A DNA stretch of 46,519 nt from Arcicella sp. (GTDB taxonomy: Bacteria > Bacteroidota > Bacteroidia > Cytophagales > Spirosomataceae), in the NCBI GenBank assembly GCA_025354645.1, contig JANXML010000077.1, positions 1 to 46,519 of the forward strand. Reading direction: 5' to 3'. The notes below the pieces were generated by a model. The model saw nothing but the letters and a program-made list of their open reading frames with translations, did not search any database and was not told where the DNA came from. Below are positions 18,369-24,830 of this stretch, piece by piece. The first letter of the stretch is position 1. The number at the start of each line of letters is the position of its first letter. The position numbers were made by a program, and so were the translations under genes.

Positions 18369-20534
18369 ATGAAAAAAACTTTCCTAATCTTTTCCGCTCT
18401 AATATTTTCTAATACTCTCATTGCTCAACAAGATATTTTATTGGCTTCTGCAAGAAAAGACTCCACTGGTGTTTTTATAGGTGATATGCACGCCACTGAG
18501 CAAGTAGAATCGCCTGGCGTTGCCCGCAAATTTGCCATTACAAATCTTAAAAAAGACCTTGATGCACTTGATAAAAGTGGAAAAAATACACTCTTGAGTG
18601 ATGCAGGTAACAATAATGAACGCAATTTGAATAGCGAAATTTATGCCACTTATCTTTCTCGTTTAGATAAAAAATACAAAGGTGATGTCCGTTCAATTGA
18701 AACTGATAATATTCGGGATATTTTTCAAATCGAGCAAAAAAGTGAAATTAAAAGAAGACATTCAAGTGTTGTATCTGCACAATGTTTTAGCAGTAAAAAT
18801 GAAGGTCAATTTATTAAAATGAAGGATTTAGATGGTGAAGAAATTATAGGCTATCCACTTGAATCGTTTAAAGGTAATTCAAGGTATGGTTTAGTAGAGA
18901 ATTATCGTCAAGGATTCGCCCGTATAAAAAAAGATCAAGTTTTTGGATTTTTAAATTACTGCGGAGATGAAACAATCCCATGTCAATATGAGAAAGCAGA
19001 GCCATTCAATGACGGCAAAGCCTTAGTTAAGAAATTTGACTGGTATTTTGTGGATGTATATGGAATTGAAAGTGAGGCTCTTGAAAACATTACTGATGTT
19101 AAAGCTCTACGTTTAGGAATAAGCATCGCAAAATTCAAGAACGGCAAACAGGCTTTAATTGATAATACTTATGATGTAAGTAAAAAACCTCTTTCTGATT
19201 ATTATGATGAAGTAACGGTTTTTAATAATGAGTTATTTAGAGTTCGTTCTGGCAAAAATTTTGGCTTAATAAAAATTGATGGCTCAACAAAAATTGATGC
19301 CATTTATGATAATATTAATTCAACAACCGAAAAAGGTAAATGGATAATTATCGAGCAAAATAAGAAAGTTGGTTTGATGGATACAGATGGAAATATTAAA
19401 GTAAAACCTTCTTACGAATCAATTGCTAATATGACAATTGACCCTTCTGTTTCCCCTAACGCAAATTTAGGAATTGCGAAAGATGAAGCTGGAATAAGAT
19501 TAATTGACTTTAAAGATTTGAGAACCAGCAAAACCTATTCATCAATCGGTGATTTTAATAAATATGGATTAGCTCAAATAAAAGACGGAAAATACATTGG
19601 CTATATTAATCCTGAATTAAAAGTAGTTATTGAACCTATTTATAGTTCATTAGGCAATTTCAATCAATATGGCTTGGTCGCTGCATGCAGGGCTGGCGTA
19701 AATGGAGCGAATAACGGAACAAATAAATGCGGATATATTAAGTTTGATGGTAGTGAAATTGTTCCAATAAATTTTGATGAGGTAGCCCAATTTAATAAAT
19801 TTGGTTTGGTGGTAGTAAAAGAAAATCTAAAAAATTGTAGCCTTCCTGCGGGGAATTGCAGAGCGGATATGATTTATGATAAAAATGGTAATTTAGTGAT
19901 TGGTAAAACAAATGAAGTTGCTCCTATTGGCATAAAATACATTACTACTGACACGCTTTTTAATAGCAGTTTTATTGCAATCAAGACTTTCAATCCTCAA
20001 AAAAATGGTGATGATATGCCAGTTGAATATAATTTAGTTGAAAGAAACAGTTTGAAAAGGATAACTTCCCAGAGTTATATTTCAATCAAACGTTATGACT
20101 CAAATTTGATGTTCCCCGTTTTAAAAGATGGCAAATGGGGATTGATTGATACTACTGGTAAAATCGTTGCAAAACCTGCTTACAAGGATATTATGATAAC
20201 TACCGAAGGATTGTACGGCGTAAAATACGATAATAATAAATATGGATTTATTGACAAAAAAGGGAAAGTGCAAATAGCATTTGATTATGAAGAAGTTCGT
20301 CCTTTTAACAATGGACTTTCAATTGTATCGAGAGGGCAAGGTAAATTAGGCGTTATTAATCGTTTTAATGCTAAAATTGCCCCTTGTTATTTTGCGGAAG
20401 TGAATATTTTACCAGCAACCAAGCAATTTGAACTATTGGATGCTTCGGGCAACAAATTTGTGCTGAATAGTAATGGAGATTGCGTTACAAATTGCACAAA
20501 ATTCGACGAAATAAGAAAATTGGCGAATCAATAA
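18369..20534 (+). CDS. secreted WG-repeat protein
   Basis: 721 residues with a signal peptide (MKKTFLIFSALIFSNTLIAQ, cut about residue 19-20). From about residue 165 to 690 the sequence is built from repeated units of roughly 35-70 residues of WG type, for example FGFLNYCGDETIPCQYE, KWGLIDTTGKIVAKPAY, KYGFIDKKGKVQIAFDYEE and KLGVINRFNAKIAPCY. WG repeats form small beta-structured modules in surface or periplasmic proteins; their ligand is usually unknown. The N-terminal 150 residues are charged and unlike the repeats. Flanked by a 221-base gap upstream and a strong terminator downstream. Confidence 0.88.
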   Translation: MKKTFLIFSALIFSNTLIAQQDILLASARKDSTGVFIGDMHATEQVESPGVARKFAITNLKKDLDALDKSGKNTLLSDAGNNNERNLNSEIYATYLSRLDKKYKGDVRSIETDNIRDIFQIEQKSEIKRRHSSVVSAQCFSSKNEGQFIKMKDLDGEEIIGYPLESFKGNSRYGLVENYRQGFARIKKDQVFGFLNYCGDETIPCQYEKAEPFNDGKALVKKFDWYFVDVYGIESEALENITDVKALRLGISIAKFKNGKQALIDNTYDVSKKPLSDYYDEVTVFNNELFRVRSGKNFGLIKIDGSTKIDAIYDNINSTTEKGKWIIIEQNKKVGLMDTDGNIKVKPSYESIANMTIDPSVSPNANLGIAKDEAGIRLIDFKDLRTSKTYSSIGDFNKYGLAQIKDGKYIGYINPELKVVIEPIYSSLGNFNQYGLVAACRAGVNGANNGTNKCGYIKFDGSEIVPINFDEVAQFNKFGLVVVKENLKNCSLPAGNCRADMIYDKNGNLVIGKTNEVAPIGIKYITTDTLFNSSFIAIKTFNPQKNGDDMPVEYNLVERNSLKRITSQSYISIKRYDSNLMFPVLKDGKWGLIDTTGKIVAKPAYKDIMITTEGLYGVKYDNNKYGFIDKKGKVQIAFDYEEVRPFNNGLSIVSRGQGKLGVINRFNAKIAPCYFAEVNILPATKQFELLDASGNKFVLNSNGDCVTNCTKFDEIRKLANQ

Positions 20535-23199: not shown

Positions 23200-23865
23200 T
23201 TACCATTTAATGGGTTCTAAACCTTTACTAATTAAATAATCGTTTGCCTGTGAAAAATGCTTTGTACCAAACCAACCGCCATAATTTGCAGCCATCGGTG
23301 AAGGATGTTTCGCCTTCAAAATTAAATGTTTAGAAGCATCAATAACAGCACCCTTATCCTGAGCATATTTACCCCAAAGCATGAAAACAACATTTTCTTT
23401 CTGGTCTGACACACTTTTAATAACCGCATCTGTAAACGTTTCCCAGCCCTTTTTTTGGTGCGAACCCGCTTCTCCTGCACGCACGGTTAGTGTTGAATTC
23501 AATAGTAATACACCTTGTTCTGCCCATCTTTCAAGATTACCACTTTTAGGGATTGGATTTCCTAAATCATCTCTAATTTCCTTAAATATATTCTGTAAAG
23601 ATGGAGGCATTGCCACTCCGTCATTCACGGAAAAAGATAATCCGTTCGCTTGATTATAGCCATGATATGGATCTTGCCCTAAAATTACGATTTTCGTGTT
23701 ATCAAAAGTACATTTATCAAAAGCATGAAAAATGAATTTTCCAGGAGGATAAACTTTCGTCGAAGAGAATTCTGTTTTTACAAATTCAATTAATGTACTG
23801 AAATAGGGTTTTTCAAATTCTTGGGTAAGGTGTTCTTTCCAAGATTGTTCAATTTTTACATCCAT
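23200..23865 (-). CDS. ung: uracil-DNA glycosylase (family 1)
   Basis: Removes uracil from DNA and starts base-excision repair. The 221-residue length is normal. The water-activating motif GQDPYHG is at 63-69 (catalytic D65), and a uracil-pocket region follows (ANGLSFSV). The DNA-intercalation/histidine motif is HPSPMAANYGGWFG near the C-terminus. Most homologues have HPSPLSAxRG here, so this is a minor variant. A small gene lies 22 bases upstream on the same strand. Confidence 0.97.
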   Translation of the reverse strand: MDVKIEQSWKEHLTQEFEKPYFSTLIEFVKTEFSSTKVYPPGKFIFHAFDKCTFDNTKIVILGQDPYHGYNQANGLSFSVNDGVAMPPSLQNIFKEIRDDLGNPIPKSGNLERWAEQGVLLLNSTLTVRAGEAGSHQKKGWETFTDAVIKSVSDQKENVVFMLWGKYAQDKGAVIDASKHLILKAKHPSPMAANYGGWFGTKHFSQANDYLISKGLEPIKW

Positions 23866-23887: not shown

Positions 23888-24070
23888 TTAAAATATTTTT
23901 AATTGATATTTGCGTCGTAACGGATTGATCAAAAATTTCTTTTGAGCCGTAAAACTCTCAGGATTCATTTGATTAAAAATAACCTTTAACGCTTGAAAAT
24001 GTTCTGGATTTTCCCATAAGAACTTTTCAGCGTCGATATTTTTTTGTTCAAGATATTGTTCAAAAATCAT
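23888..24070 (-). CDS. small hypothetical protein (60 aa)
   Basis: 60 residues, charged, with no membrane segment or signal. It ends in a basic tail (FLINPLRRKYQLKIF). It lies 22 bases upstream of ung on the same strand with an ATG start and would be the first gene of an ung-SGNH hydrolase unit. I do not recognise a family. The ordinary amino-acid composition and tight spacing favour a real gene. Confidence 0.55.
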   Translation of the reverse strand: MIFEQYLEQKNIDAEKFLWENPEHFQALKVIFNQMNPESFTAQKKFLINPLRRKYQLKIF

Positions 24071-24177: not shown

Positions 24178-24235
24178 TAAAAAAGTCGCCAGCAATGCTA
24201 ACGACTTTTCTGATAACCCTAACCCATAAAAAATC
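24178..24235 (+). repeat. hairpin/leader repeat, copy 1 of 3
   Basis: Begins AAAAAAGTCGCCAGCA, continues with a variant inner hairpin (AGCA/TGCT) and CGACTTTT, then the shared tail GATAACCCTAACCCATAAAA. It is the most diverged copy. The 24071-24830 region holds no convincing gene; its only structure is this repeat set. Confidence 0.85.
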
Positions 24236-24283
24236 TAACAAACTATATGCTCTTTATTCTTTCCAAAAATTTATTTAAGAGAG

Positions 24284-24354
24284 AAAAAGAGTCGCCAGCA
24301 AAACCAGCGACTTTTTTGATAACCCTAACCCATAAAAAATCTATGAAAAACTAA
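24284..24354 (+). repeat. hairpin/leader repeat, copy 2 of 3
   Basis: AGTCGC / GCGACT stem with an 11-base CAGC-A-rich loop, followed by six T, then the shared tail ending in ATGAAAAACTAA (a three-codon open frame). About 106 bases after copy 1. Confidence 0.88.
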
Positions 24355-24411
24355 TTTTATACTTTTTAAAAATCTCTGTTTCCTTTGTTATCTACGTGCT
24401 TGTAAAGTTTA

Positions 24412-24483
24412 GAAAAGAGTCGCCAGCAGAACCAGCGACTTTTTTGGTAACCCTAACCCATAAAAAATCTATGAAAAAACTAA
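24412..24483 (+). repeat. hairpin/leader repeat, copy 3 of 3
   Basis: Same stem and T run as copy 2, tail with GGTAACCCTAACCCATAA and ATGAAAAAACTAA. Copies 2 and 3 share about 85 bases. About 128 bases after copy 2. The DNA from 24484 to 24830 is AT-rich, and I see nothing else in it. Confidence 0.88.
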
Positions 24484-24515
24484 ATTATACAATTAAAAAA
24501 ATCAGAAAAAAATAG
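24471..24515 (+). CDS. possible 14-residue leader peptide in repeat copy 3
   Basis: An ATG in the conserved tail of copy 3 opens a 14-codon frame giving MKKLNYTIKKIRKK, strongly basic. Copy 2 has the same ATG but stops after three codons. It could be a leader peptide, the stump of a lost gene start, or chance. Confidence 0.2.
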   Translation: MKKLNYTIKKIRKK

Positions 24516-24830
24516 TCGATTTGACTTGCCGAAAGGAATGAAAAGGATTAATCATTAAAAAAGATTAAATCCCGAATTTGAAGAAATTAGTGAATATTAA
24601 AAACTACTAATGGTTTCATTTATCATTACATCTGGCGGGATGATTTGCTGATGATTATTGAAATACAATTTGCGTGCCAATCTTTTTAATAATTAACGTT
24701 ATTTTATTTTAACTCTATATTATGCTAAAAAATCAAAATTTCGTGTTTGGTCAGTATTAATTCGTTTTCTGTCAATAACTGTTTCTCGATTTCTATTCAA
24801 TTTTGTATTATCAATTTAACAAAAAATAAA

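Follow-up and report, generated by a model that had tools for sequence, protein, structure and literature searches.

Three tandem putative small-RNA genes in an Arcicella genome and a candidate conserved RNA family of the Arcicella/Flectobacillus group

Which strand of a triplicated, hairpin-bearing repeat between two Arcicella genes is the meaningful one, and does the repeat encode RNAs, control a neighbouring gene or merely occupy intergenic space? The window analysed here is the whole 46,519-nt stretch of contig JANXML010000077.1 (Arcicella sp., GCA_025354645.1). Its three repeat copies lie at 24179-24266, 24285-24372 and 24413-24500, the whole triplication thus covering 24179-24500. The triplication reported in a preliminary description of this DNA is real and has the start-to-start spacings of 106 and 128 given there; a 32-base tail has three matches in the window at up to three mismatches, and 0 of 100 shuffles reached three. 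The ATG described for two of the repeats is present in copies 2 and 3, where the frames stop after 3 and 14 codons and are therefore not genes. The region is almost, though not entirely, gene-free as had been stated: a 60-aa minus-strand ORF at 23888-24070, too short to enter the ORF list, has the array on one side and a uracil-DNA-glycosylase-type gene on the other, and shows 80-85% identity with its counterparts in the relatives G002, G005 and G007. The array is flanked by this uracil-DNA-glycosylase-type gene (23200-23865, minus strand) and by an NAD-dependent epimerase-like gene on the plus strand, which, judged from the relative in L086, starts at ATG 24831 rather than 24747. Scanning the window with Rfam 15 returned no family at gathering score, and a tRNA search of the window found none. 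Elsewhere in the window, positions 18369-20534 encode a 721-aa protein with WG_beta_rep repeats.

From the sequence comparisons below, the locus is likely to consist of three tandem small-RNA (sRNA) genes that would be read from the minus strand and would each end in a separate terminator. Each predicted RNA would be about 60-70 nt long and would comprise a conserved segment, UUUUUAUGGGUUAGGGUUA, followed by its own Rho-independent terminator. The parts of the array, including the three hairpins mentioned in the preliminary description, are located as follows:

24178-24235, minus strand: putative sRNA copy 1, model span from conserved block to U run (R1 79.4 bits, E 8.8e-16)
24284-24341, minus strand: putative sRNA copy 2, model span (R1 80.5 bits, E 4.7e-16)
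24412-24469, minus strand: putative sRNA copy 3, the first that would be transcribed, model span (R1 76.2 bits, E 5.5e-15)
24214-24232, minus strand: conserved block TTTTTATGGGTTAGGGTTA, copy 1
24320-24338, minus strand: conserved block, copy 2
24448-24466, minus strand: conserved block, copy 3
24184-24206, minus strand: predicted terminator stem-loop, copy 1 (-18.1 kcal/mol in a 39-nt fold; covariation)
24290-24312, minus strand: predicted terminator stem-loop, copy 2 (-13.9 kcal/mol; covariation)
24418-24440, minus strand: predicted terminator stem-loop, copy 3 (-13.9 kcal/mol; covariation)
24514-24539, minus strand: block upstream of the array, similar in four genus genomes by eye

The 5' end of copy 1 presumably lies 10-15 bases further upstream of the model span.

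The strand is indicated by the stem itself. Read on the minus strand, each unit runs from UUUUUAUGGGUUAGGGUUA(U/C) through the hairpin to a U run. Positions that oppose C to A in the plus-strand stems are G-U pairs on the minus strand. Thus, the hairpin and T run, rightly recognized at the outset as terminator-like but read on the plus strand, would close a minus-strand RNA whose body would be the apparent plus-strand leader. Likewise, the earlier suggestion of an array of small RNAs stands as an array of putative sRNA genes, on the opposite strand from the one proposed. Across the inner ten pairs of 24 copies, taken from the own genome and its relatives, the 240 cells comprise 194 Watson-Crick, 41 G-U, 2 A-C and 3 other combinations; a wider set of 38 distinct rows (380 cells) has 318 Watson-Crick, 47 G-U, 4 A-C and 8 other combinations and 3 gaps, all these cells being non-independent, as the sequences are related, and the test treating both strands alike. 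Folded alone, the hairpins of copies 1, 2 and 3 reach -18.1, -13.9 and -13.9 kcal/mol on the minus strand versus -10.2, -12.1 and -12.2 kcal/mol on the plus strand, the former being stabler in all three copies.

Comparison of the relatives, which the preliminary description had proposed as a check, revealed that the stem is kept by compensatory changes. In the 24-row alignment (22 distinct), 96.9% of the cells are paired, and nine pairs and 58 cells carry two-sided changes; 0 of 500 shuffles are as high in pairing or reach the number of such cells, their types or the score, whereas 15 of 500 reach the number of pairs. The wider alignment (38 distinct of 41 rows), which was fitted to the covariance model, is 96.3% paired and has 135 cells with two-sided changes; its number of two-sided-change pairs is attained in 148 of 500 shuffles, the other measures in 0 of 500. 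The 19-base block ahead of the hairpin is invariant in the 24 aligned copies except at one position. A conserved RNA stretch would be expected before a terminator, hardly after one.

The own genome contains four strong copies in the search with covariance model R1 (73.6-80.5 bits; next match 33.9), namely, the three of the array and one on another contig (C357:13378-13435). The weak own-genome matches look like plain terminators lacking the core, and the 187 of 200 family genomes that match R1 at E<=0.05 are for this reason left unused. At 60 bits or more, a copy is found in 16 of the 200 family genomes, spanning six genera. Of 59 relatives searched at the DNA level, 17 had a match at E<=0.001, and some of these matches are not the element. 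Where present in relatives, the element is kept as single copies or arrays: tandem arrays of two to five copies occur in four genus genomes (three copies in the window, five in G005, two each in G002 and G007) and single copies in related genera. Arcicella rosea (G001) has one copy, at another location, and Arcicella aurantiaca DSM 22214 (G007) has three copies in all. Searching 390 genomes of the order with model R2 yielded 42 matching genomes at E<=1e-5, 31 from the window's family and 11 from other families, the latter scoring 39-47 bits with altered cores, UUUAUUGGUUAAGGU being an example. When 395 genomes were drawn from the whole phylum, two matched at E<=1e-6, the own genome and one of the same family. 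Thus, the element is largely confined to one bacterial family; in the NCBI taxonomy Arcicella belongs to Flectobacillaceae, Cytophagales. Scanning viral contigs for the element gave nothing, and a scan of genome contigs gave 24 stretches, 17 of them from Arcicella/Flectobacillus-type or Cytophagales-MAG records. The other seven (Flexithrix, a Flavobacteriales MAG, Marinospirillum, Turicibacter, a Deltaproteobacteria MAG and two Legionella) lack the layout by eye and were set aside. The Rfam scan of 16 + 16 related loci found only tRNAs. Taken as sequences, the copies appear to form a conserved sRNA family of the Arcicella/Flectobacillus group that is not reached by any Rfam 15 family.

Sequence comparison divides the element into at least two paralogous classes. 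Class A is the array type and has no sigma-54 element, whereas class B is a single locus with a sigma-54-type -24/-12 element, present in six of eight genus genomes (own, G002, G004, G005, G006 and G007). Class B and several other-genus copies have TGGCAC/T-N5-TTGC, which we take to be the sigma-54 -24/-12 element, upstream on the minus-strand side; in the own class B copy the match has one mismatch (TTGGCACGGAGTTGGCA). The exact pattern with the core following within 38-65 bases occurs in 11 of 222 family genomes and 3 of 36 genera, and its reversed form in 0 of 222. Within 110 bases upstream of 51 hand-picked loci, an element with at most one mismatch is found in 19, at -44 to -71 and in six genera; 52 regions had been set up, L297 being dropped by the terminator filter, and five of the 51 scored loci were chosen through the sigma-54 pattern search, all five being listed by the R1 search as well. 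Among ten class A upstream regions, including that of the window array, none has the element at up to two mismatches, nor is a clear TAnnTTTG with a -33 element visible by eye upstream of the array. The block TCGGCAAGTC (24514-24539), some 70 bases ahead of the first sRNA copy, contains an imperfect AGTC/GACT dyad and is possibly a promoter or activator site.

The neighbouring genes, named from their N-terminal sequences, differ between loci. Class B copies and a YihY-type membrane protein gene point towards each other in six genus genomes and three other genera (L083, L093-L097, L138, L141 and L147). An enoyl-CoA-hydratase-like gene adjoins the class A-like copies in A. rosea, in G017 and at most of the Flectobacillus-group loci seen (L087, L089, L092, L134, L136 and L137; not seen in L135), the arrays of the window's closest relatives (L084-L086) are near the uracil-DNA-glycosylase gene, and copies in genus g28 adjoin other genes. 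No protein-coding gene is common to all the stretches seen, making the RNA the conserved unit. In L087 (A. rosea) and L092 (Flectobacillus group), class A copies are located a few genes from a gene that reads as rpoN; its proximity to class A while class B has the sigma-54 elements may be a coincidence.

How might such RNAs act? The closest described layout is that of FopS (RF04319) of Bacteroides, which is described as having 14 paralogs with a single-stranded 5' stretch, a terminator and sigma-ABfr promoters, as pairing near susC start codons and as being bound by the RRM-1 protein RbpB (PMC11697453). Like FopS, the array encodes a putative multicopy Bacteroidota sRNA in which a 5' stretch with a conserved segment precedes a Rho-independent terminator, and on alignment both contain GUUUUUCAU and UUARGGUUA-like pieces. 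An invariant block, a covarying hairpin and a U run follow each other in the expected order; the 5' stretch is only partly single-stranded, copies 2 and 3 folding with part of the conserved block also paired in a 5' hairpin. A consensus fold of class B supported no such hairpin, and the prediction of one in the own class B RNA was dropped for that reason. Unlike FopS, the predicted array sRNA has the core GGGUUAGGG, a tandem arrangement and a score far below the FopS cut-off. By analogy, the array sRNA may nevertheless work like FopS.

Other known RNAs are more distant. Rfp36 of Flavobacterium psychrophilum, likened here by description only, is another putative Bacteroidota regulatory RNA, listed under a sigma-54 (SM4) promoter, and thus provides a precedent for sigma-54 control of sRNAs in the phylum (PMC9723704). 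Among the literature matches listed for GGGUUAGGG are telomeric RNA, G-quadruplexes and other eukaryotic RNA. Yfr1-type sRNAs of cyanobacteria are short and have an ultraconserved unpaired motif ahead of the terminator; the array sRNA is from a different phylum and has a different motif. GlmY/GlmZ and CrcZ are sigma-54-dependent sRNAs of Gammaproteobacteria, some of which titrate a protein, and we know of no sequence relation between them and the array sRNA.

Our tentative proposal, possible rather than probable, is that the array encodes a trans-acting antisense sRNA that would pair, in the manner of FopS, around the start codons of mRNAs for envelope and secreted proteins and lower their translation, the tandem copies raising the sRNA dose. 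The tail had originally been likened to leaders of TonB-dependent receptor genes. This resemblance was not borne out for the conserved core: of 56 SusC-type matches in the own genome, 30 were fetched and 27 had usable leaders, and the core complement, sought as ACCnTAACC, lies within 60 bases of the start in 0 of these 27. The SusC-leader reading of the core was rejected. The looser likeness, an A-rich leader followed by ATGAAAAA, is what would be expected of the complement of a FopS-type antisense sRNA. Across eight genus genomes no conserved target was found, and the core complement near ATG recurs mainly at the sRNA loci themselves. Within 25 bases of ATG it occurs 5-23 times per genome versus 61-110 times for its commoner reversed form, a rough control because the dinucleotides differ from those of the true form. 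Beyond the sRNA loci, the recurring complement strings are three leaders that the closely related G003 and G006 have in common and one string that is similar in G001 and G005.

The start-codon proposal was also compared with pairing energies. The 5' region tested is the presumed 37 nt from a putative 5' end, as in the G005 copy, and includes GUUUUUUCAU, able to pair with AUGAAAAAC. Against the 27 own SusC-type starts it reaches a mean of -15.4 kcal/mol versus -11.6 (sd 0.8) when shuffled, and against 863 A. aurantiaca starts -13.3 versus -12.1 (sd 0.4) kcal/mol, with 0 of 40 dinucleotide shuffles as extreme in either set. For the core alone, 52 of 877 A. aurantiaca starts pair at -14 kcal/mol or better versus 34 (sd 7.7) in 100 shuffles. 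Four of the ten best core matches are low-complexity CCTAACCCC leaders, a kind found in both orientations. After removal of 14 repeat-bearing starts, 44 of 863 still reach -14 versus 28.7 (sd 5.9), a count reached in 0 of 40 shuffles, and the repeats thus explain only part of the excess. Intergenic low-complexity CCTAACCCCTAAA repeats, in both orientations, were observed in L235-L294 (A. aurantiaca contigs C1, C3, C4 and C6); they resemble the core complement and disturb target prediction. The core alone has no preference for SusC (12.5% of shuffles as extreme), and the A. aurantiaca set included just three SusC-type genes (p 0.05). Among the 27 own SusC starts 18 have CAU placed on the start codon, as do 398 of 877 A. 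aurantiaca starts. A. aurantiaca starts of the M[KNR][KN] type pair better (-15.5) than others (-12.9), implying that the signal is partly generic. For this reason, and because the signal depends on a presumed 5' end, we keep the start-codon mechanism tentative.

A protein-binding role is nearly as likely as this mechanism. Under such a role, the same sRNA genes would provide, through the GGGUUAGGG segment, a protein-binding site, and the RNA would be a multicopy decoy titrating an RNA-binding protein such as RRM-1, as CsrB does. A decoy would fit a core that is nearly invariant next to a flanking stem that changes freely, the lack of a conserved complementary mRNA site among the genomes compared, the amplification of copies in tandem and the RRM-1 protein encoded in all eight genus genomes (with two matches in G003). 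However, CsrB-type decoys usually carry many sites per RNA, whereas the array sRNA has one pair of GGG, and its pairing with start regions exceeds that of shuffles for the 5' region and, more weakly, for the core. On balance, the decoy is possible but somewhat doubtful. More doubtful still is a wider idea, in which a sigma-54-controlled single-copy gene and an amplified, differently controlled paralog sharing the ultraconserved GGGUUAGGG within one Cytophagales lineage would feed two signals into one protein-binding regulator buffering envelope-protein translation.

Could the copies instead be true, divergent members of FopS, inherited from a common Bacteroidota ancestor? We consider this improbable. 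With the FopS model, copies 1, 3 and 2 score 15.8, 16.9 and 19.1 bits, all far below the gathering score of 56, and the array sRNA is therefore not filed as FopS. Tested alone (79 bases), copy 2 aligns with the model end to end on the minus strand as the best of seven weak Rfam matches, but in a 391-base scan unrelated families score as high as or higher than FopS. Besides the pieces and terminator common to both, membership would be favoured by L320 (G321), a relative from another family with a UUUAUUGGUUAAGGU-type core, which scores 25.3 bits. However, a whole-genome FopS search, for which 150 of 1098 candidates were scored, lists 12 matches, none of them an array copy and the best (24.9 bits) elsewhere; a FopS match at E<=3 was obtained for just one of 20 short loci of the family; and class B has sigma-54 elements in place of the sigma-ABfr promoters described for FopS (PMC11697453). 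A variant with the core UUUAUUGGUUAAGGU was also observed in L305, L306, L312 and L315, from other Cytophagales families; a CCCUAUAUA..UAGGG hairpin precedes the core in three of these four loci, and the variant is a possible bridge to FopS.

A repetitive DNA element of the REP/MITE kind, acting as a bidirectional terminator and devoid of RNA function, is very unlikely. The element is multicopy, palindromic and intergenic, with A/T tracts flanking the hairpin, but there are just four strong copies in 5.36 Mb, they are kept at matching sites in several genera, the stem changes are compensatory and strand-asymmetric, and the class B promoter elements lie at a similar distance. The tandem attenuators, or duplicated receptor leader whose gene was lost, suggested in the preliminary description are hardly tenable: T runs follow the hairpins on the plus strand too, the hairpins fold there and an ATG follows the tail in two copies, but the G-U/A-C asymmetry points to the minus strand, on which the invariant block precedes the hairpin rather than sitting after a terminator, SusC leaders lack this block (0/27), single copies in relatives adjoin different genes, and sister copies have sigma-54-type elements on the minus-strand side.

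Three tandem minus-strand sRNA genes thus remain our favoured reading of the locus. A literature search, with most subscription papers outside its scope, found no paper on small RNAs of the Arcicella group. With a named strain, covariance models and a sigma-54 handle, sRNA regulation in this group is directly testable, and such work would tell whether FopS-style control reaches beyond Bacteroides.
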